DNA of 64,000 nucleotides from a virus: positions 124,001 to 188,000 of IMG/VR virus record IMGVR_UViG_3300022745_000628; one strand, given 5' to 3'. Under the pieces are notes generated by a model that was given only the letters and a program-made list of their open reading frames with translations, was not told the DNA's origin and did no database searches. Positions 2,560 through 46,614 of the stretch are shown piece after piece (within the stretch, counting starts at the first letter, position 1; every line of letters starts with the position of its first letter). The position numbers and the translations under genes were made by a program.

Positions 2560-4404
2560 ATGTACACAAAATTTCCAAATGCCGTCCCGCAAATAACTTA
2601 CGGTGGCAATGTTCGCTCTGACACAATCAATAAGATTGCAAACGAGCTTGCTAGCCGCACGAATTATTTATTGGATCAACTTAACGAAGTAACCGCGGGT
2701 AGCGCGTTAGTTATCACTAACGAACCATGCACATCAGAAGTCACTGCGTTTAACGCCGTGTACTGGAATGCTGACGATCGGCTATTTGAGCCGGCATTAT
2801 CACAAATTGTGACGACCACTGGCGGAGAATACGTAGTAGGTCCGTCGGCACTGGCAATAGGCATAACCACCGTAAAAAATGGCGTAAATCTCTGCGATAT
2901 CACGATTGGCGGGCGTATAGCTATGACCGCTGATCAAGTAGCGATACTTATAAATAACGAAACGCCTGTAAGCGGGCTGCTGTATCTTTCGGCGACTATC
3001 CCAGGTAAATTGACGACATCAAAGCCGTTAGCCGCTATTCCAGTTGGCGTACTGCTCACTCCGTCGAATTCTTGTCGAACTACCTATCAAGTTATTCTCG
3101 GGGCTGGCTGTCTGGCCGGAGACATTAACAAAACGTCAACACACGAGTACCGCTTGTACGCCGTACCGGCTGGCGATCACGTACCGCCGGATGTAGGCAA
3201 CCCGCACACTATTTTGAATCCGGATTCAGCCAGCCACGGATGGCTGCCAGCCGATGACGCAATATTTAACGGGGCAGCGCCAGACGGGGCAGTATTCGGG
3301 TACAACATCTCGCAAGACCCTACTTTGGCAAATATATGGCCACCGAGCGGTAAACAAGTATTGGTAGAGTTTTATTCGTCCAGCGACATCGGAATTGTCG
3401 GACTAAAAGAAGTCCCGACGCATTTTTATATTGTCGACGACACCACTATTTGGTGGACTACGGATTGTTATAGCAAAGTGCCTTGGGATTATCTGCTTAA
3501 CACGGTAGATCCGCCAGATCCGCCAGAAGACTGCGCTATACCAGCGCCAACAGAGATGATCTTACGATTTGATCGCTCGTTTCTGGATAACGCTACACGA
3601 GTAGTTACGAAGTTATCCGGCACTGACGACAAATTGATTACGTTTGTAAACGCCGCAGGACAAGAAGCTAGCCGCGGAGACTTGAAGGCCAAGTTCAATG
3701 CGGATATCGCAATCACAAATTCAGCGGCCACTGGCTCTACCGCAATTAAATCCGTAGGGCCTGGCTTTACGTTTACATCCGGTAAGGTAGTGGAGGGCGT
3801 GCGAAGTTTGTCTAGCACGTTAATAGTTACAGGCACAGAAAGTCGGCTGATCGATCCAGGTCAAGCGGAGTCGGACTCAAACTACCGTATTTACCAGGGT
3901 ATCGTATCTGTTGAAAGCACACCTAGCGCTTTCGGACTGGACATATCGCCTACTCTGGTGCGCCTAGGCGACAGCTTGCAACGTGCATACAACGACATCA
4001 ACTATATCGGCTTTCCTAGCGGCATAGCGTCGTCGGTAACCTGCCGATTTGATATTCCTAACGGCGATCCAGGCTCAAAGAACTTAGTTCCTTATGTTGT
4101 TATGTTTGGACGCGCCGCAGGTCCGTTTTCGGCTATGTCTGCAAAGTATTACGTAATCAAAGCGCCGCCTGCGCCGGGCGGAGCTCAGATTGTGACCGGC
4201 TCTACGACAAGCACAACTTTCAATGTGGTTACACCATCTACGGGATTAGATGCAAATGCCGTTATTAAAGTAACGGCCGGGGCTATCCCTGTTTATGGCG
4301 GTGACACCGTGTTTGTAACATTCAGTCGAGCTGCCGATGCTTCGCCGAGTTTTTCGGCTGACATCGGATTTATTCGAATCGGAGCAGCAGTAAGGGCTAG
4401 ATAA
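2560..4404 (+). CDS. Probable tail fibre or tail-tip protein
   Basis: 614 aa, beta-rich, low in lysine, with many G, T, S and N residues, typical of an extended fibre or receptor-binding protein. The N-terminal 40 residues (NVRSDTINKIANELASRTN) look helical, like attachment regions that trimerise fibres. A short proline-rich hinge (PPDPPEDC) near residue 320 may separate two domains. It overlaps the next gene by one base (TAATG). No catalytic motif is seen. Function inferred from composition and location. Confidence 0.55.
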   Translation: MYTKFPNAVPQITYGGNVRSDTINKIANELASRTNYLLDQLNEVTAGSALVITNEPCTSEVTAFNAVYWNADDRLFEPALSQIVTTTGGEYVVGPSALAIGITTVKNGVNLCDITIGGRIAMTADQVAILINNETPVSGLLYLSATIPGKLTTSKPLAAIPVGVLLTPSNSCRTTYQVILGAGCLAGDINKTSTHEYRLYAVPAGDHVPPDVGNPHTILNPDSASHGWLPADDAIFNGAAPDGAVFGYNISQDPTLANIWPPSGKQVLVEFYSSSDIGIVGLKEVPTHFYIVDDTTIWWTTDCYSKVPWDYLLNTVDPPDPPEDCAIPAPTEMILRFDRSFLDNATRVVTKLSGTDDKLITFVNAAGQEASRGDLKAKFNADIAITNSAATGSTAIKSVGPGFTFTSGKVVEGVRSLSSTLIVTGTESRLIDPGQAESDSNYRIYQGIVSVESTPSAFGLDISPTLVRLGDSLQRAYNDINYIGFPSGIASSVTCRFDIPNGDPGSKNLVPYVVMFGRAAGPFSAMSAKYYVIKAPPAPGGAQIVTGSTTSTTFNVVTPSTGLDANAVIKVTAGAIPVYGGDTVFVTFSRAADASPSFSADIGFIRIGAAVRAR

Positions 4405-5348
4405 TGGCCGGTGACGGATTATGGAACAGTAATTGGCTAGTAGAGAATACCCAACGAGCTTATCCGTTGCGGTATAGCGCTTCTGCTACGGATTCTACTT
4501 CCGCAGTGCGCATACCGGATAACTTTATCTGCGCTGCGCAGTTGGTAACACGCGGTTACAACCCAGTCAAGTTCTTTATCTCTGGCGTTACCTATATGGG
4601 TAACTTTATTGTTGTAACCATAAGCAACCAGTTCTCAGATTCTACAGTTGTGGATATCGGCACTGTAACCGTGCCTATCGACACACCAGATTTTACGGTT
4701 TTGCAGATAAAACCAAATACTGCGGCGAGTGGCAAAGCTGCCGGGAATATCACAATAGGCTCGCTAGAGACTATTCTCAATTGGCCAACCGGGGTATTTA
4801 CATTCCTATTCGACACCACAGCATTAGAATTCGATGTTTGCCGACCAACACTTGATACCGCTACCAGTATTCAAATATGGGATGGCGACGCGATAAGCGG
4901 AATACTGACCGGCGACGTGATTTTGCGTAGCGGCGCAAATATCCAACTTGGCCAAAAATTCGGTAGTTCCGGCACTGTAGTAACTATTAGTGCGGTGAAC
5001 GATCCGAATTTCAACGACAATTGCGATTGTCAGTCCGCTATTATTGGACCGCCTATTCGCCAAATCAACGGTGTGTCTCCCGACATAAACGGAAATATAG
5101 AGATTGTCGGCAGCGACTGTATCGCGTTCAATACTGGAAACGGCTCGTTATCGGTCGCAAATAGCTGTGCATCGCCATGTTGCGGATGCGATCAGCTAGA
5201 CGCAGTCTTCGTGGAAATAAAGCGGTTTGTAGATGGGGCAGCAGATTTACGCGATTACGCAAATAGATTGCGACAAGCTATTGATAAACTAGACACTATC
5301 GTGTTGGTTTCTGATAGTGTCGGTAACTGCCCACAAGTACCAGGATAA
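4404..5348 (+). CDS. Tandem tail-protein paralogue 1 (YPL/ING family)
   Basis: 314 aa. The N-terminus carries the shared motif NWLVENTQRAYPL. From residue 221 it carries INGVSPDINGNIEI followed by a GSDC element, then a Cys cluster (CASPCCGCDQL) and a C-terminal helix. The same order recurs in the next four genes, so I read them as paralogues made by tandem duplication. The ING..PD..GNI pattern is the kind seen in phage tail fibre and tip proteins. The Cys-rich segment might bind metal or form disulphides in the mature virion. Overlaps the following ATG by one base (TAATG). Confidence 0.6.
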   Translation: MAGDGLWNSNWLVENTQRAYPLRYSASATDSTSAVRIPDNFICAAQLVTRGYNPVKFFISGVTYMGNFIVVTISNQFSDSTVVDIGTVTVPIDTPDFTVLQIKPNTAASGKAAGNITIGSLETILNWPTGVFTFLFDTTALEFDVCRPTLDTATSIQIWDGDAISGILTGDVILRSGANIQLGQKFGSSGTVVTISAVNDPNFNDNCDCQSAIIGPPIRQINGVSPDINGNIEIVGSDCIAFNTGNGSLSVANSCASPCCGCDQLDAVFVEIKRFVDGAADLRDYANRLRQAIDKLDTIVLVSDSVGNCPQVPG

Positions 5349-6802
5349 TGGCTGAGAGCAATCTAAACAATCGGCATATCCACGGGCGCTATTGCGTAGG
5401 GCGTAACCAAGGCTTACTTGGCGTACACTACCCGCTCATAGAGCCGTCGGCGGATATCAAATATCTAATCGCAGATATGTGGGTCGTGGTTTCAGACTCG
5501 CCGAAATTGCAAGCTGTGATCGCAGACGGCGGTTTAGCAATTACATGGCTATACGGTTTCGGAGCGAATGCAGTTACACCGCCGGAAAATACGCTGTATC
5601 AGGGTTACAACCTTCGAGATGTGGCCATATTTAACAGCAAGAACAAACTCCTGTTGTCGACGTCCGCTGTTACACCTAGCGGCCGTCCGATATTTAGCGA
5701 GACGGTGATAGACTCTCGACTGTCGTTAGCGCGCTGGACAATACCGCGGTTATATGACGTCGGTATCCTATACCACACTGCTTGGAATTACGAATTAAAA
5801 CCGGCGCCGCAAGAGTACGACGAGCATATTCTTCCGACTAGCGCTAGGTTAGTCGGAGCCGTAGTATCTTTTGAACAGAACCTGCATTTGCTTGCCGAGT
5901 TGCCTAACGGTACTAAAATACCGGTTAACGCATTAGGCAATAAATTTAATACGCAACTTACAATCGATACGAAGATAAAAGCACCTGCGGACGTGTTAAC
6001 TATTACAGCTCGCGCTGGCCTTGGTTTCGGACGCAATACCGATTGTTTTAGCAATAAGTACGTGGCATCCATAAATAAAGCTACGCCAGATCAAGCTGGC
6101 CGCCTAGTTATTTCCGGTGACGATTGCATGGTTATAGATACGCCAGTCACAGAAGATGCCAAGAATATTGTGCGTATCACAGACGATTGTAAAGCTTGCT
6201 GCGATTGCACTGATTTCAGCCAGGCCGGGCGAGCGCTTGATACCGCCGGAACACTGTATAAAAGCATCGGCGACAGTCTTGTTGAAACCAACGGCCTGTA
6301 CTCTGGTAAATTAGACGACTGGGAAGCCCGTGTGGCTTGCACAGACGATGCGCGGCTCGGCCTGGCATTAACAGCGCAGATTTGTCCGTATTTCGATATA
6401 ACAGCGCAATATTGCAATAACGCGGCTGAATGCGTACTCAACATAGAGTTGTTCGCAGATTTTAATATCCCAGACGGATTTAGTATTGATTTAGTTAGCG
6501 CACACTTGCTAAGTGATAAGCGTCAAACTGTAGAAGTAGATTTGTCGAAATATCCGATAATCCGATTTATTATTCCATCGATAGCTAAAAAAAGTCGGGA
6601 TGGCGTAATAGCCAGATTCAAATTCTCAGGGAATGGCGTACAAGAAGACAACACGCCAGTAAGTTTTAGCGTCTGCCTAACCGGCTCTGTCGACAACCAG
6701 CTTATAATTTCAGGGAATGCCCAAATCGTAACTTGCGCAGATTTGACTTTGAAATGTCCTGTAAGCACCGGCGATGTGATTGTCGTTGACGGATCGTGTT
6801 AA
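5348..6802 (+). CDS. Tandem tail-protein paralogue 2
   Basis: 484 aa, the second copy of the array. Its N-terminus is the most divergent (GLLGVHYPLIEPSADIKYLI), but the central motif is clear: from residue 242 INKATPDQAGRLVISGDDC, then CKACCDCTDF, which matches the Cys cluster of paralogue 1. The extra C-terminal 200 residues form a separate beta-rich Cys-containing domain absent from paralogue 1. Expected to be a virion surface or tail-tip protein; evidence is family resemblance within the array and operon position. Confidence 0.6.
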   Translation: MAESNLNNRHIHGRYCVGRNQGLLGVHYPLIEPSADIKYLIADMWVVVSDSPKLQAVIADGGLAITWLYGFGANAVTPPENTLYQGYNLRDVAIFNSKNKLLLSTSAVTPSGRPIFSETVIDSRLSLARWTIPRLYDVGILYHTAWNYELKPAPQEYDEHILPTSARLVGAVVSFEQNLHLLAELPNGTKIPVNALGNKFNTQLTIDTKIKAPADVLTITARAGLGFGRNTDCFSNKYVASINKATPDQAGRLVISGDDCMVIDTPVTEDAKNIVRITDDCKACCDCTDFSQAGRALDTAGTLYKSIGDSLVETNGLYSGKLDDWEARVACTDDARLGLALTAQICPYFDITAQYCNNAAECVLNIELFADFNIPDGFSIDLVSAHLLSDKRQTVEVDLSKYPIIRFIIPSIAKKSRDGVIARFKFSGNGVQEDNTPVSFSVCLTGSVDNQLIISGNAQIVTCADLTLKCPVSTGDVIVVDGSC

Positions 6803-6805
6803 TAA

Positions 6806-8419
6806 ATGCAAGAAACCATCGATTCCCTTAAATTAGGCTGGTTCTCGCGAAACAGCGGCCGGCGCTATCCTATTGAAGATACCGCTACTGCATTAAGTGA
6901 ATCCGGAGTTTATCTACCGGATTCTTTTTTAGTTGATTTGCGAATAAGCTGGCCGGAAAGCTACGGGCCGTACGCGTTCATCAGCTTTGCGTCCGTTTCG
7001 GCATCTACCGTTGCAATCGGTATAGCCGCATCGCAAGATCCTAATCTGGCTGACACAGTTATACCGCTAGCTAACGCATTAGTAAGTCGTAGAACCGCCA
7101 ATACGCAGGTGCACAAGTTAAATCCTATGGCTGACGGCGTAGCGGGATTTTTAACATTTGGAGATACCGCAGAAGAATTCAACTTGCGCTTTGCAACGCC
7201 AGCACAGACACGATTAGCGCCCACAGTATGCCAAGCTTACAAAGATGCGGGCGTTAGCAGTATGCGTGTGCCCAGCGCACAACCACTCACTGGGGATATT
7301 ACCCTTGTTGCCGGCAATGACGTTACCTTAAGAAATGTGATACTCGAAACTAAGACGGGAATGCATATCTGCAATGCGATTGCGATAGGCCTAGCCGCGG
7401 CTAATTCGCACAACGACCCCTTATCTAAATATGTGGGTGTTTGCAATAAACGACCTGAGAATGGCGATTGCGCCACTGGAAATACCGATACGCCAGCGGT
7501 GCAGACAATCAATGGGTTGATAGCAGCATGCGACGGAACCTTCACCATCCGAGTTGAGAACGGAACCATCCGAGACGGCACTCCGAAAGACTTTGGAACA
7601 AACAGCGTTGTCCTAGGCTACGACGCCACTTTAGAAGCAATTTGCGATACCAAAAATCGTAATCCGAACATTGCAGCCGTGATTAACGCATGCGAGTCTC
7701 CTGCGGACCCGCCAGAGCGTCCGTGCGAGGATTTGCCAGTTATATACCCCATGACGGGAGAACCGCGGGAAGCCGAGTTTTGGAACTTTTACGACAGTTT
7801 GCATACAGCTACAGCCACTGGCTGTAAATTCCTGCAGCGTGTGGCGAACAACGGCCCAACCTTCACAGACGGCTTTGCCACGTATGACAGCTGCGGACAT
7901 ACCGAGACGGTAGACAATACTTTAGAAGTTACTGTAACCGTTGACGTACCGGCCGCTACAGCAAGCACTCCTATTCCGACAAATCGCGGCGGCGGGCTAG
8001 TACTGAACTTTTTACGGGATCTCTGGCTATACAATTCGCTCGAGAATAAGCTGGAAAACACTACAGACAGTCAACTGAGGTTACTGATAGACATTGACGC
8101 TGAAGCGCATCCTGGCCCGCAACAAACGTTCACATATTACTACGTGATTCGTTACATGAAGCGCGGTGTAGTTTATAAGTCCGTGCGGCTAGAAGATCTG
8201 ACATCCCACTCCGTGGCCGCTTTCACGGTCAACGTTGTAATTACTCCTGGTACAACAGATATCGATGCCAACTTAGCTGTAGTTGTTACAAAAGACGGGG
8301 TTAAGCTGGCTGAGTTTAATATCTTAGAACAAGAATATGGGCCGCATTACGGAAAGCACGGGCTGGCTAGTTACGACGAAGTCTACACTCTTGGGAATTT
8401 CAAATTAAAGCATAACTAA
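6806..8419 (+). CDS. Tandem tail-protein paralogue 3
   Basis: 537 aa. Starts with LGWFSRNSGRRYPIED, the clearest version of the shared N-terminal motif. A degenerate ING element (VQTINGLIAACDGTFTI) lies at about residue 235. The C-terminal half is a different beta-rich domain with several cysteines and looks like a variable distal module. Begins three bases after the previous stop and ends immediately before the next ATG. Probably part of the receptor-facing tail apparatus. Confidence 0.6.
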   Translation: MQETIDSLKLGWFSRNSGRRYPIEDTATALSESGVYLPDSFLVDLRISWPESYGPYAFISFASVSASTVAIGIAASQDPNLADTVIPLANALVSRRTANTQVHKLNPMADGVAGFLTFGDTAEEFNLRFATPAQTRLAPTVCQAYKDAGVSSMRVPSAQPLTGDITLVAGNDVTLRNVILETKTGMHICNAIAIGLAAANSHNDPLSKYVGVCNKRPENGDCATGNTDTPAVQTINGLIAACDGTFTIRVENGTIRDGTPKDFGTNSVVLGYDATLEAICDTKNRNPNIAAVINACESPADPPERPCEDLPVIYPMTGEPREAEFWNFYDSLHTATATGCKFLQRVANNGPTFTDGFATYDSCGHTETVDNTLEVTVTVDVPAATASTPIPTNRGGGLVLNFLRDLWLYNSLENKLENTTDSQLRLLIDIDAEAHPGPQQTFTYYYVIRYMKRGVVYKSVRLEDLTSHSVAAFTVNVVITPGTTDIDANLAVVVTKDGVKLAEFNILEQEYGPHYGKHGLASYDEVYTLGNFKLKHN

Positions 8420-9241
8420 ATGGCTGACAACTTCGAAGGATTTGCCAGTTGGCGCGAACAACAAAAAGAATCTAGATACCCATTTGCAGACTTTAGCTCT
8501 GTCGAAAGTGTCGAAGGGTTAATTATTCCCAATGAAGTACTTATTGATGCCAGCGTCGCATTTGCAAATAGTGATAGTTACGTAGAGCTGATCTCGGTAT
8601 CCAAGACGGATAATCTACTTACATTTACATTTCGCAACCTGATTGAAACGGAAACAGCCGCAGGCGTTTTTGATTTAAGCGCTCCGTCGGACACCATATA
8701 TCTTTACGATACGTTTAATCGTCGGTTGGGGCTCTTGATTGTGGATATAGGCGCGACATTGACATTTGGCATAGGCCTTGCCACAAATCTGACCTTTAAG
8801 TCAGGTGCCGCACGGCTGTGTCCGCGGTGCGTACACACGTATGCAGGTGCCGGTGTAACTAGTTTACGAATACGCGACAGCTCGACGGCTTTATCTGGTA
8901 ACGCGTTACTGATTGGTGAGCAAGGAATATTACTACGGCATATAACTGAAGAAGTTACATCGTACACCGATCCATCCAGTTCCCACCCGATATTGGTAAC
9001 CCATACAGTTAACTACATTCGTGTCGATGTCGTTGGAGATCCATTGGCGGCTGCTGCGAATTGCGCAGACAGTACTAATATCCCAGTTACGTTTCCAACC
9101 TCCATAAATGGAGTAACTCCGAATGAGTACGGGAATATCAATTTAGCAATAGATCGCGGAACGCTTGGGAGTGCGTTACGCATAATTCCAAACGCTAAAA
9201 ACTCTGAGCTGATCATTAAATTAGCGGGGGTAGGTATTTAA
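8420..9241 (+). CDS. Tandem tail-protein paralogue 4
   Basis: 273 aa, the shortest copy. N-terminal motif FASWREQQKESRYPFADF. At residue 229 it carries INGVTPNEYGNINL, a textbook version of the shared motif. A CPRC pair near residue 134 is reminiscent of Cys clusters in the neighbours. No long distal domain follows the ING motif, so this copy may be the minimal form of the family. Overlaps the next ATG by one base. Confidence 0.6.
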   Translation: MADNFEGFASWREQQKESRYPFADFSSVESVEGLIIPNEVLIDASVAFANSDSYVELISVSKTDNLLTFTFRNLIETETAAGVFDLSAPSDTIYLYDTFNRRLGLLIVDIGATLTFGIGLATNLTFKSGAARLCPRCVHTYAGAGVTSLRIRDSSTALSGNALLIGEQGILLRHITEEVTSYTDPSSSHPILVTHTVNYIRVDVVGDPLAAAANCADSTNIPVTFPTSINGVTPNEYGNINLAIDRGTLGSALRIIPNAKNSELIIKLAGVGI

Positions 9242-10155
9242 TGTTTGAGTGGTATAACGAAAATCAATTCAGGTCGTGGCCATTAAAAAGTGGCGCGACG
9301 CTTGGTAATACTGTACTGGTGGACGCCGGCTTTACTTGCGGACTGCCTGCCACAGTCAATATCACTGTCTTAACGTTAATAGCCAGAGATACTGACAAAT
9401 TTAGACTGTTTGTGCGGGTTGGCGGTTATCAAGTAGTATTTGAAATACCAGTCGATACCCCAGAATTCACAACAATTTGGGCTGCTCCGCCAGCGGTATC
9501 TAACGCAACATTCCTAAATAACTGCATGAGCGGTAAAACACTATACGGATTTATAGTCATTGGGAAAATACAAGAACTGCTGACATTATTACCGGACGCC
9601 GATACCAGTCTCGTATTTGCCGACGAATTCGAACCTACCGTGACCGATATCATTAACAGTAAAGCCGTTAGCTCGATATCTTTAGGAAATACTGCGCGTA
9701 CCGTCTCTCCAGGGCTTATCAACTGTACAAATAATCCATACATACGCCCAACACCCTACAAAATCAAAAATGCCGATGGAATTAGCTATTCAGGCGTAAG
9801 CATCGACTACAACTGTATATCCGGCGATATAGTGTGGAAACCAGGGTATTCGTGCCGAATCATCCAATCTGACTCTGTAAAATCGTTCACAATATCGGCG
9901 ACGCAGGATTCTCAAGAAGGCGTAGCCTGTGGCGATGTGCCTATTGACGATGCGGAAGCCGCTTTACTAGTCAGCGGCGGAAATCTTTCTGGCGTACAGA
10001 CGTGCGCGGACGTAATAAGATCTATCAACGGCATTAGCGGGCCAAATATTACAATCAAAGGCGGACCCGGTGTAAAAATTACGAACGAAATACCTGCCAC
10101 AATTGTTGTAGAATTGGGCGCTAACGACGCTAACAACTGTGGATTGCCGCAATGA
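9241..10155 (+). CDS. Tandem tail-protein paralogue 5
   Basis: 304 aa. N-terminal motif FEWYNENQFRSWPLKSG; central motif INGISGPNITIKGGPGVKI from residue 262. Ends within the start of the next gene (4-base ATGA overlap). As in the other copies, the first 120 residues form a beta-rich domain with the element PVDTPEFTTIW, which also occurs in paralogue 1 as PIDTPDFTVLQ. This second shared element strengthens the case for common ancestry. Confidence 0.6.
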   Translation: MFEWYNENQFRSWPLKSGATLGNTVLVDAGFTCGLPATVNITVLTLIARDTDKFRLFVRVGGYQVVFEIPVDTPEFTTIWAAPPAVSNATFLNNCMSGKTLYGFIVIGKIQELLTLLPDADTSLVFADEFEPTVTDIINSKAVSSISLGNTARTVSPGLINCTNNPYIRPTPYKIKNADGISYSGVSIDYNCISGDIVWKPGYSCRIIQSDSVKSFTISATQDSQEGVACGDVPIDDAEAALLVSGGNLSGVQTCADVIRSINGISGPNITIKGGPGVKITNEIPATIVVELGANDANNCGLPQ

Positions 10156-11015
10156 GCCAAGAACAAGCATCAAATTGCCAACAAGGTTTTGTAGTTACAA
10201 ATGATTTCGCATTTGTACCTAATTGCGATATACGTATGCCGGATAATAAAACCGTCATAGCCTGTGCGCCTACGGTGCCTCCGTTAGATCCGCCAACGGT
10301 TCTTTTACCGTGCCCTACTTTTGAAATAACTGTATCAGCTACCGTCACAACCGTTACGCCGAATCCTAACTACCCGCAGCTTACCGGCGGCGCAGTCACA
10401 AATACGAATCGAGACTGTATAACGTGCGAAAACAACATTCAGGTGAATTTAGACCTGACGATGCCAAAATTGATGGAGTACGTCAATTTTAGGCTGGACG
10501 AGGCTATGACCCCTGATCATTCGTGTGTACCGGCTACGGTTATTTACGACTACGCTGGCGCACACGCACCCGGCGACACAATAACTGTTTGCGCAGATAG
10601 ATCGTTCCCGACGGATGCGCTGTACATTCCAAGCGGAGCGTACGGTATTGGGTTTAATACAGGTGACAGCGAAAATTTTCAAGTTTCCACGTATGAAAAA
10701 CCAGCGCTGTTGGTGCGTGCGAAATTAGTGAGCGCTTACGGTCTGGGTGTTATGGCTTGTAATGCTAACATCGCATATGTGACAGATTTACATCCTGTAC
10801 ACGTGCGCGATGATAACTATTTCCCATATCCGCCGAGCGCGATAATTCCCGTATCTAACGAAATGCATCTCACCGGCCAGCCTAATTACCGCGTACTGCT
10901 GTGTTTTGATCGAGAATTGCTAAGCCGTTCAGACGTCAAGCCGTATTTCATAGCAATCGTGTACCCTCCATGCGGTTTGGGAGCCGGCCCTACTGCCCCG
11001 CTAGAAGTGCCATAA
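10152..11015 (+). CDS. Cys-rich probable virion protein
   Basis: 287 aa. Contains at least ten cysteines, proline-rich stretches (PTVPPLDPPTVLLPCP) and beta-type segments, but not the YPL/ING motifs of the preceding genes. Overlaps paralogue 5 by four bases, so it is translated from the same mRNA. Likely a tail-associated protein. No family recognised. Confidence 0.55.
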   Translation: MSQEQASNCQQGFVVTNDFAFVPNCDIRMPDNKTVIACAPTVPPLDPPTVLLPCPTFEITVSATVTTVTPNPNYPQLTGGAVTNTNRDCITCENNIQVNLDLTMPKLMEYVNFRLDEAMTPDHSCVPATVIYDYAGAHAPGDTITVCADRSFPTDALYIPSGAYGIGFNTGDSENFQVSTYEKPALLVRAKLVSAYGLGVMACNANIAYVTDLHPVHVRDDNYFPYPPSAIIPVSNEMHLTGQPNYRVLLCFDRELLSRSDVKPYFIAIVYPPCGLGAGPTAPLEVP

Positions 11016-11016
11016 C

Positions 11017-11715
11017 ATGGTAAAACGCGCTGTTGTTAACGTAATTTATGGAGATCCATCGGATCACGCCATAACTACAGAAAATCATCGCCGATACGCT
11101 GAGAAATTGGGGTGTGATTATCGTGTAGTTAAGACGGTTAAGCCGGTGCGGCCACCAGTACCGGCTATGGATACCACGTACACATTCACACACGAGTGTT
11201 TTTTTAAGTTTGACGTCGCACAAGTTCTTAACGAATACGATCAGACGTTGTATTTAGACGGCGACATCGTCATAAGTCGCGCCTGCCCGAATATTTTCGA
11301 CTTTGTACCCCTCGAGAAGTACGGTTTTATTGACGAGCTCCTGTTGATGCGCCCAGAGCACGTCGAAACCATCAAATATTGGTTTGTAACTACTGGTTGG
11401 AACGATCCTTGGTGGAGTTTGAACGGCGGTGTGCTGGTTTTACCTAAAAACGGCGCTGAGTTCTATTCTTTCCACAAAGAGCTCGATTTTCAGTTCGCCA
11501 GCGACCAAAACATGCTGACATTGTCTATTCATGACAAACCTGACAAGTTTTTGCTGTTAGATCACCGGTTTAACCACTCTTACATGCATCACAAAGAGTT
11601 TTATCCAGGATTGCACGATGCCTGGATCATTCACATGGCTGGCATGGGGGCGTATCAATCGGTAAAAGAGCGCGATTTAGCGCTGACGCGGTGTTTGGAG
11701 ACATACGGACTCTAA
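11017..11715 (+). CDS. Glycosyltransferase-like protein (GT-A fold), copy 1
   Basis: 232 aa. Features of nucleotide-sugar glycosyltransferases of the GT8/GT34 type are visible: an N-terminal beta strand (RAVVNVIYG), NHRRYAEKLGCDY, the DxD metal-binding element in LYLDGDIVI near residue 78, and WWSLNGGVLVL near residue 130, the usual acceptor-side motif. His-containing C-terminal segment DAWIIHMAG also fits. It could glycosylate virion proteins or host surface sugars. Lies between the tail array and a paralogous copy, which favours a virion or host-envelope target. Donor and acceptor unknown. Confidence 0.65.
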   Translation: MVKRAVVNVIYGDPSDHAITTENHRRYAEKLGCDYRVVKTVKPVRPPVPAMDTTYTFTHECFFKFDVAQVLNEYDQTLYLDGDIVISRACPNIFDFVPLEKYGFIDELLLMRPEHVETIKYWFVTTGWNDPWWSLNGGVLVLPKNGAEFYSFHKELDFQFASDQNMLTLSIHDKPDKFLLLDHRFNHSYMHHKEFYPGLHDAWIIHMAGMGAYQSVKERDLALTRCLETYGL

Positions 11716-11716
11716 A

Positions 11717-12394
11717 ATGGTCAAACGAGCTCTAGTTAACATAGCGTATGGCGCATCTGCGATCGCAGAATTAGCACTTACTCGTAAAAATCACCAACTT
11801 TACGCTAAAAATTGCGGCGCGGAGTACATTGAGCTCGTAAAAGACGTGCAATTGGCGTACGGACCAGCCGCTAAGTTCAAAATAGTCGAAATTGCTAAAG
11901 ATTTTGATCAAACGCTGATGATAGACACGGATACCGTGGTCTTTCAGCCAAACATCAATATTTTTGACACTTGTCCGGTCGGATGGTGGGGATTTGTAGA
12001 CGAACTACGGTACATACAGTTTCCGCTAGAAGAATTTGAGCAAACATTGCGGCATATCGCGGATATTTTACTGCAGCCACACGTTGTGCCGAAAATAAAC
12101 GTGAATTCTGGCGTACTTTTGCTGCCAAGAGACGCCAGCATATACTTGCCAGCCGAAAAACCGCTGCCAACGACCTGGTGCATTGAGCAAATTTGGCTGT
12201 CGTACCGTCTTTTAAGCACAAATGCCAATTATGTACGCCTGGATCCTCGTTTTAACTGGTGTAAGTTTTTTAGAGAATTCGAAAGCGGTCGCAAAGATGC
12301 CATTATTTTGCATTGGAATGATCGCACAGACCGAATCAATATGCTGCAGAAGCTCATGTTAGAGCTGCCTAAAAAGCTAGGTGGACTAAAATAA
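11717..12394 (+). CDS. Glycosyltransferase-like protein (GT-A fold), copy 2
   Basis: 225 aa, starting one base after copy 1. Begins MVKRALVNIAYG, nearly the same as MVKRAVVNVIYG of copy 1, and has a DxD element in LMIDTDTVVF and INVNSGVLLLP in place of LNGGVLVL. The C-terminus DAIILHWN matches DAWIIHMAG of copy 1. The two genes therefore arose by tandem duplication and have diverged, presumably with different acceptors or successive sugars. Confidence 0.6.
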   Translation: MVKRALVNIAYGASAIAELALTRKNHQLYAKNCGAEYIELVKDVQLAYGPAAKFKIVEIAKDFDQTLMIDTDTVVFQPNINIFDTCPVGWWGFVDELRYIQFPLEEFEQTLRHIADILLQPHVVPKINVNSGVLLLPRDASIYLPAEKPLPTTWCIEQIWLSYRLLSTNANYVRLDPRFNWCKFFREFESGRKDAIILHWNDRTDRINMLQKLMLELPKKLGGLK

Positions 12395-46507: not shown

Positions 46508-46530
46508 CGTTTAGTAGGTAACAACTAGCG

Positions 46531-46601
46531 GCGCCGTTAGCACCAAGGCGGTGCACCAGCTTTCAATCTGAGTGAGATCGGTTCGATTCCGATACGGCGC
46601 T
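46531..46601 (+). tRNA. tRNA-like element, possibly degenerate tRNA-Glu
   Basis: 71 nt. Acceptor stem GCGCCGT/ACGGCGC is perfect over 7 bp; D arm GCAC/GTGC is 4 bp; T arm ATCGG-TTCGATT-CCGAT is perfect. Spacing fits a tRNA body. The anticodon arm is poor: a strict 5-bp stem fails, but CCAG can pair with CTG(A)G with one bulge and an 8-base loop CTTTCAAT. The loop resembles CTTTCA of tRNA-Glu (anticodon TTC); strict numbering would give TCA. No CCA is encoded. It sits directly ahead of the ribosome binding site of the next gene. Confidence 0.5.
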
Positions 46602-46614
46602 ATGGAGGAGAATT

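Follow-up and report, generated by a model that had tools for sequence, protein, structure and literature searches.

Five tandem genes in the baseplate cluster

The stretch of DNA analysed here (64,000 nucleotides, called the window) covers positions 124001-188000 of the IMG/VR virus record IMGVR_UViG_3300022745_000628, which comprises 193,796 bases. It contains an array of five consecutive open reading frames (ORFs) on the + strand at 4404-10155, named A to E, which abut, overlap by 1 nt or are separated by 3 nt and which sit four genes 3' of a baseplate J gene. A tail sheath gene lies about 18 kb upstream of the array in the same record (PHROG tail sheath match, E 7e-11), and the phage is therefore taken to be contractile-tailed. 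A preliminary description had listed five consecutive genes encoding 273 to 537 amino acids, which the ORF coordinates confirm, and had proposed that they are paralogous tail genes with a conserved N-terminus and swappable distal domains. Using an alignment of the N-terminal parts of A, C and D, we found one IMG/VR contig (L028) whose five genes match those of the window one-to-one by position in first-round BLASTP; two more search rounds raised the number of loci to 25 in total. The genes of the array and their distal domains are as follows, with E-values of the L028 orthologs and further evidence in brackets:

4404-5348, + strand: A, core-only paralog, 314 amino acids (L028 ortholog 6e-46; profiles)
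5348-6802, + strand: B, paralog with distal domain, 484 amino acids, length-variable in relatives (L028 ortholog 3e-9)
6380-6799, + strand: distal domain of B, common to the main clade only (tail grouping)
6806-8419, + strand: C, paralog with core and distal domain, 537 amino acids (L028 ortholog 2e-28; AlphaFold2 N domain)
7721-8416, + strand: distal domain of C (residues 306-537), predicted concanavalin-A-like lectin or carbohydrate-binding jelly roll (VIA, 4azz)
8420-9241, + strand: D, core-only paralog, 273 amino acids (L028 ortholog 1e-22; profiles)
9241-10155, + strand: E, core-only paralog, 304 amino acids (L028 ortholog 1e-4; profiles)

Homology among the five genes and their shared core

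Single-sequence BLASTP connected the pairs C-D (5e-8), A-B (2e-5), A-C (1e-4) and A-E (2e-4). Profiles built from about 19-23 orthologs per gene were compared with hhalign, and all ten pairs among A-E matched with probabilities of 94.7-99.7% and E-values of 5.8e-8 to 2.2e-26. The alignments spanned at least 200 columns in nine of the ten pairs, the pair B-E being limited to 60 columns. Column-shuffled controls yielded E-values of 0.23-0.8, and the family profiles of X, Y and Z, the three genes between J and the array, did not match those of A-E. The likeness of the five genes is far beyond chance, and they are true paralogs with a homologous core, as the preliminary description had proposed.

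The core common to A-E consists of an N-terminal helix with W..N..R.YP and a beta domain, followed by strands with LTGD..L..G.N and ING..P..GN. The motifs and domain layout named earlier held for part of the set. A W..N..R.YPL start had been ascribed to all five genes; the literal motif W..R.YP occurs in four of them (A, C, D and E), and B carries only '...GVHYPL' (B orthologs of some other phages begin with W and YP). Likewise, an ING..PD..GNI segment had been placed at residues about 220-260 of each protein. Its positions agree for all copies, with starts at residues 221 (A), 242 (B), 235 (C), 229 (D) and 262 (E), and the exact form ING..P..GN[IV] is limited to A and D, the segments of B, C and E being degenerate. 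That different domains follow the shared part is true of B and C and not of A, whose short tail weakly resembles coiled coils over its last 40-50 residues, nor of D and E, which end soon after the motif region: in the window phage D and E stop about 28 residues past it, and the range for A, D and E is about 28-49. Only the A and B orthologs have a near-invariant group of cysteines past the ING segment, CxxPCCGC in A and CxxCCxC in B, which may represent a metal site or a disulfide cluster.

5064-5105, + strand: ING segment of A, INGVSPDINGNIEI
6071-6112, + strand: degenerate ING segment of B, INKATPDQAGRLVI
7508-7549, + strand: degenerate ING segment of C, INGLIAACDGTFTI
9104-9145, + strand: ING segment of D, INGVTPNEYGNINL
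10024-10056, + strand: degenerate ING segment of E, INGISGPNITI
5166-5189, + strand: invariant cysteine cluster CASPCCGC of A (ortholog alignment)
6188-6208, + strand: cysteine cluster CKACCDC of B (ortholog alignment)
5196-5318, + strand: C-terminal segment of A, weakly like coiled coils (coiled-coil chains were the sole profile matches, all weak, E 0.34 and above)

Conserved gene order and separate ancestry

Iterative profile searches of ORFs identified A-B-C-D-E in the same order and on one strand in 23 IMG/VR records besides the window; all of them are metagenomic contigs, they include three near-identical-looking pairs or trios, and L038 ends before E. J-X-Y-Z precede the array wherever the fetched stretch extends that far, and counterparts of X, Y and Z are likewise found upstream of the array in L028. 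The J orthologs of L028, L046 and L053 match Baseplate_J (PF04865) above the cut-off, and this match locates the array within the cluster of baseplate genes. E-values of iterated profiles include the profile-building sequences, and our argument rests on first-round BLASTP, the tree described below and the profile comparisons. A different arrangement was seen in record G013 (L030 8274-15729 and L031 15015-18997), where Z-A lie on the + strand, D-J on the - strand and B-C-X on the - strand with tight junctions. X is in two pieces there, and an AAA ATPase and an HNH-like gene come after A; this arrangement is either a real rearrangement or a misassembly.

A tree of 77 cores, calculated by a quick method with support from the Shimodaira-Hasegawa-like approximate likelihood ratio test (SH-aLRT) only, separated the cores into five groups with four label changes, the minimum possible; support was 99 for C, 99 for D and 83 for E. 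This minimum indicates that the duplications predate the present phage set and that the copies are fixed parts rather than interchangeable variants. The same phage pairs recur across several core subtrees, which suggests that the cores are inherited together. Judged from the core sequences, the five genes descend along separate lines across phages.

Outside these records, we found no relatives by single-sequence IMG/VR searches with A, D or X of the window, and tblastn against 50,697 GenBank phages, for which the A, C, D, E or X proteins of several phages served as queries, gave no convincing match. Two scans of GTDB genomes were likewise negative; they used short exact peptide patterns and may miss diverged members. 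Distant contractile phages found by sheath alignment were without the array, even when a deeper A profile was applied. Neither PHROGs nor Pfam gave a significant match to A-E of the window, C and E orthologs produced single-member matches only, and by these comparisons the two databases hold no family for A-E. Searching the PDB with profiles of A, C and D retrieved no relative of the core, Foldseek against BFVD gave no useful match, and a search of the literature gave no relevant account of a five-paralog module.

Sites of variation in length and domain content

The length of A is near-constant in relatives (297-322 amino acids), and the number of residues after the core is 41-60 for A in all 23 phages compared, 23-39 for D in 20 of the 23 and 21-64 for E. 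The tail of C is missing or almost missing in L035, L036, L053 and L056 and reaches 670 residues at the other extreme, and C of L050 apparently carries two copies of the distal domain, as judged by eye. When sequences were grouped by links at E<1e-3, the tails of B fell into seven groups and those of C into six; the cores formed a single group. Variation in B extends to the N-terminus: in L047 the protein reaches 1929 residues, with repeated modules split by poly-serine ahead of the core, and a Laminin_G_3 domain (6e-13) opens the B ORF of L038. At its C-terminal end, D of L057 has a VWA-like stretch that stays below the Pfam cut-off, and genes are inserted between A and B in L052 (a collagen-like gene) and in L038 (three extra genes). 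Phages with close cores may differ in their tails, as in L036 versus L039 (cores 38-57% identical, C of 294 versus 559 amino acids) and L041 versus L050 (cores 59-72% identical, C of 576 versus 810 amino acids). Together with the tail grouping, these pairs indicate that variation is concentrated at particular sites and that the copies are not equally swappable. Variable parts, most of which belong to B and C, have been lost, doubled or replaced across phages, and the variable adhesin-like sites occupy set places: the C tail, the N-terminus and tail of B, rarely D, the genes inserted between A and B, and the gene after E. The array is modular, as had been suggested, yet a swappable domain in every copy is not what we find, since A, D and E are without a distal domain in most phages.

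The first gene after E is variable and fibre-like in L035, L036, L041, L042, L045, L046, L050 and L051. In these relatives it encodes 312-1370 amino acids in total, shares an N-terminal motif (leave-one-out E-values of 1e-8 to 1e-11) and has, in some cases, a collagen-like body. F, the gene at this position in the window, did not pass the same leave-one-out profile test for the motif (E 9.2), and its status as a counterpart is therefore tentative.

Predicted structure of C

C is the only copy that was modelled successfully, using AlphaFold2 with 23 orthologs; an AlphaFold run on A from the five paralogs alone reached a mean predicted local distance difference test score (pLDDT) of 34.5. The N domain of C (residues about 11-150) was predicted mostly with a pLDDT over 90 and shows a helix with W..N..R.YP, then a beta domain. 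Confidence was moderate in the central part and weak in the distal part. It follows from the profile homology that the other four copies would have the core fold of C.

Structural comparison of the distal residues 306-537 gave the carbohydrate-binding module CBM66 4azz (VIA Z 11.6, root mean square deviation 3.2, 146 residues) as well as the receptor-binding domain of TM4 gp23 and the CBM2 of J-1 Dit (9n6a and 5ly8, both Z 10.4), at 5-10% sequence identity, and Foldseek of C ranked beta-glucanase jelly rolls first (7.9e-4). In its predicted fold the distal domain thus resembles concanavalin-A-like lectins such as CBM66 and the two phage domains, and we provisionally assign it to the concanavalin-A-like lectin jelly-roll fold. 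C of the window (537 amino acids) has no match in Pfam, and none of the 23 C orthologs matched a lectin model; the Laminin_G_3 match lies in the B ORF of L038 instead. The structural matches of C, filled by the distal domain with the N domain barely compared, included no T4 baseplate chain.

Neighbouring genes and other observations

The genes flanking the array are listed below; X stays between J and Y in relatives.

22-405, + strand: J, C-terminal part of a baseplate J-like gene, start upstream of the window (J-ortholog profile 2e-33)
419-1963, + strand: X, conserved neighbour, putative baseplate wedge component, 514 amino acids (L028 ortholog 4e-29)
1965-2558, + strand: Y, conserved neighbour, 197 amino acids (L028 ortholog 2e-22; synteny)
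2560-4404, + strand: Z, conserved neighbour, 614 amino acids, not a paralog of A-E (L028 ortholog 1e-27; unmatched by A-E profiles)
10152-11015, + strand: F, next gene, 287 amino acids, tentative divergent counterpart of the variable fibre-like gene after E (L045 match 2e-4)

Directly 3' of this module, at 11017-12394, lie two adjacent, similar-looking glycosyltransferase-like genes, the first of which matches Glyco_transf_8 at the cut-off; the second has no Pfam match. The sole tRNA gene called in the window is at 46530-46602, with an odd four-base anticodon call (ttca). At G000:C1 70450-71625 (L005 6450-7625), inside the phage structural region, an ORF resembles, by eye, a TnpB-type transposon protein. 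Outside the window, at G000:C1 about 17.7-44.8 kb (L006, L007 and L008), about 26 small + strand ORFs, mostly of 90-136 amino acids, carry an MW..L motif; Y[AS]G occurs within 45 residues downstream in 9 of 26, compared with 0 of 26 control ORFs. These ORFs make up a large expanded family of small proteins.

Discussion

We consider it probable that A-E arose by ancient duplication and serve as five functionally fixed proteins of the baseplate periphery (tail tip) in a lineage of large, contractile-tailed phages. As the five are kept in order in distant relatives, each probably has a set task of its own within a single attachment machine. The common core would dock each copy beside its paralogs and the baseplate wedge (J, X, Y and Z), A, D and E would act as connectors or organisers, and B and C, probably together with F and the genes inserted between A and B, would present host-binding domains; in the window phage the lectin-like end of C is predicted to bind a surface glycan. 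The outcome would be a heteromeric baseplate periphery made of fixed scaffold subunits and dedicated adhesin ports, working like T4 gp10-gp12. The preliminary description had left a choice between a heteromeric tail tip and several receptor-binding specificities in one particle. The former is favoured because 23 records retain all five genes side by side, in the same order and with one-to-one counterparts, downstream of Baseplate_J, and because the tree keeps the five apart. Some observations weigh against this assignment: the A and B groups are not recovered as single branches in the quick tree, the distal domain of C has a local pLDDT of about 30-60 and is unmatched in Pfam for the window protein, and in G013 (L030/L031) A-D are scattered and E was not located, which implies that contiguity of the array is not absolutely required. 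In a more specific picture, which we rate as rather unlikely, A-E are quasi-equivalent subunits of a single heteromeric fibre hub or ring, originally homo-oligomeric and now specialised five ways, with fixed adhesin ports at B, at C, at the A/B boundary and at F, in a phage lineage that has no cultured member in the collections searched.

The array is encoded near a J/gp6 gene (J ortholog at 22-405; Baseplate_J in L028, L046 and L053), as is the periphery set of T4, whose genes 7-12 come after gene 6. T4 gene 6 is the J homologue, and gp10, gp11 and gp12, which form much of the baseplate rim, are thought to derive from one fold (PMC3004832). Like A-E as proposed here, gp10, gp11 and gp12 (with gp9) are a paralogous rim set near the J/gp6 gene with different roles in one baseplate. 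Unlike the T4 set, A-E comprise five copies whose homology is still visible in sequence, and C bears a lectin-like distal domain. Profiles of A, C and D retrieved no T4 baseplate chain, including gp9-gp12, from PDB sequences, and we do not claim membership of A-E in the T4 set, the relation being one of resemblance. A lesser resemblance is seen to CBA120, whose TSP1-4 have related assembly domains, form one branched attachment complex and each recognise a different lipopolysaccharide (PMC8825819). That cluster has several related proteins in one attachment complex, as A-E would; A-E differ from it in that three of the five have no distal domain and in that each copy keeps its position.

The CBA120 tailspikes are also the precedent (PMC8825819) for regarding A-E as five parallel receptor-binding proteins, in which the core is just an anchor and each copy addresses its own receptor, giving several host specificities per particle. 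The variable distal domains of B and C, lectin-like folds among them, would suit such proteins, but A, D and E stop soon after the core in most phages, have conserved lengths and contain nothing that resembles a separate receptor-binding domain; a receptor-binding or catalytic distal domain of their own, as expected of every member of a CBA120-type cluster, is missing from these three in the window phage. We hold this alternative to be unlikely, and one receptor specificity per copy is accordingly disfavoured. Common cores with variable tails are also what a recombination reservoir would need, in which A-E are interchangeable variants that shuffle distal domains within one genome to alter host range. 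In the tree of 77 cores, however, every gene falls with the one at the same position in other phages at the minimum number of label changes, the core is passed on as one unit, and exchange between copies is not seen. On this tree we rejected the reservoir, which we regard as highly improbable, and with it the notion of five swappable variants.

A-E could further be some other virion or tail decoration, such as tail whiskers or capsid fibres, encoded beside the baseplate genes. Whisker-like structures along the tail are described for the large phage CBB (PMC5259590), and lectin-like domains could serve decorations too. The constant linkage to J, X, Y and Z and the tight junctions argue against a decoration. 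So does the T4 precedent, in which the genes after gene 6, the J homologue, encode the periphery, and this alternative appears very unlikely. A likeness of A-E by chance, or by convergence of short fibre motifs without common ancestry, might be suspected from the literal motifs, which are short and degenerate in several copies; it is refuted by the profile alignments over at least 200 columns in nine of ten pairs and the E-values of the shuffled controls. We rejected it on this comparison and assign it a negligible probability.

With A-E as specialised baseplate-periphery proteins, J-X-Y-Z-A-B-C-D-E is a conserved tail-tip set and a possible marker for large phages without a match in the GenBank phage collection searched. 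The gene set shows where host-binding parts vary and where they are constant, and can guide annotators to the genes to inspect for receptor-binding prediction. It would also provide a case, visible in sequence, of how duplication and specialisation can give rise to a complex baseplate periphery; in T4, this idea is based on comparisons of folds.

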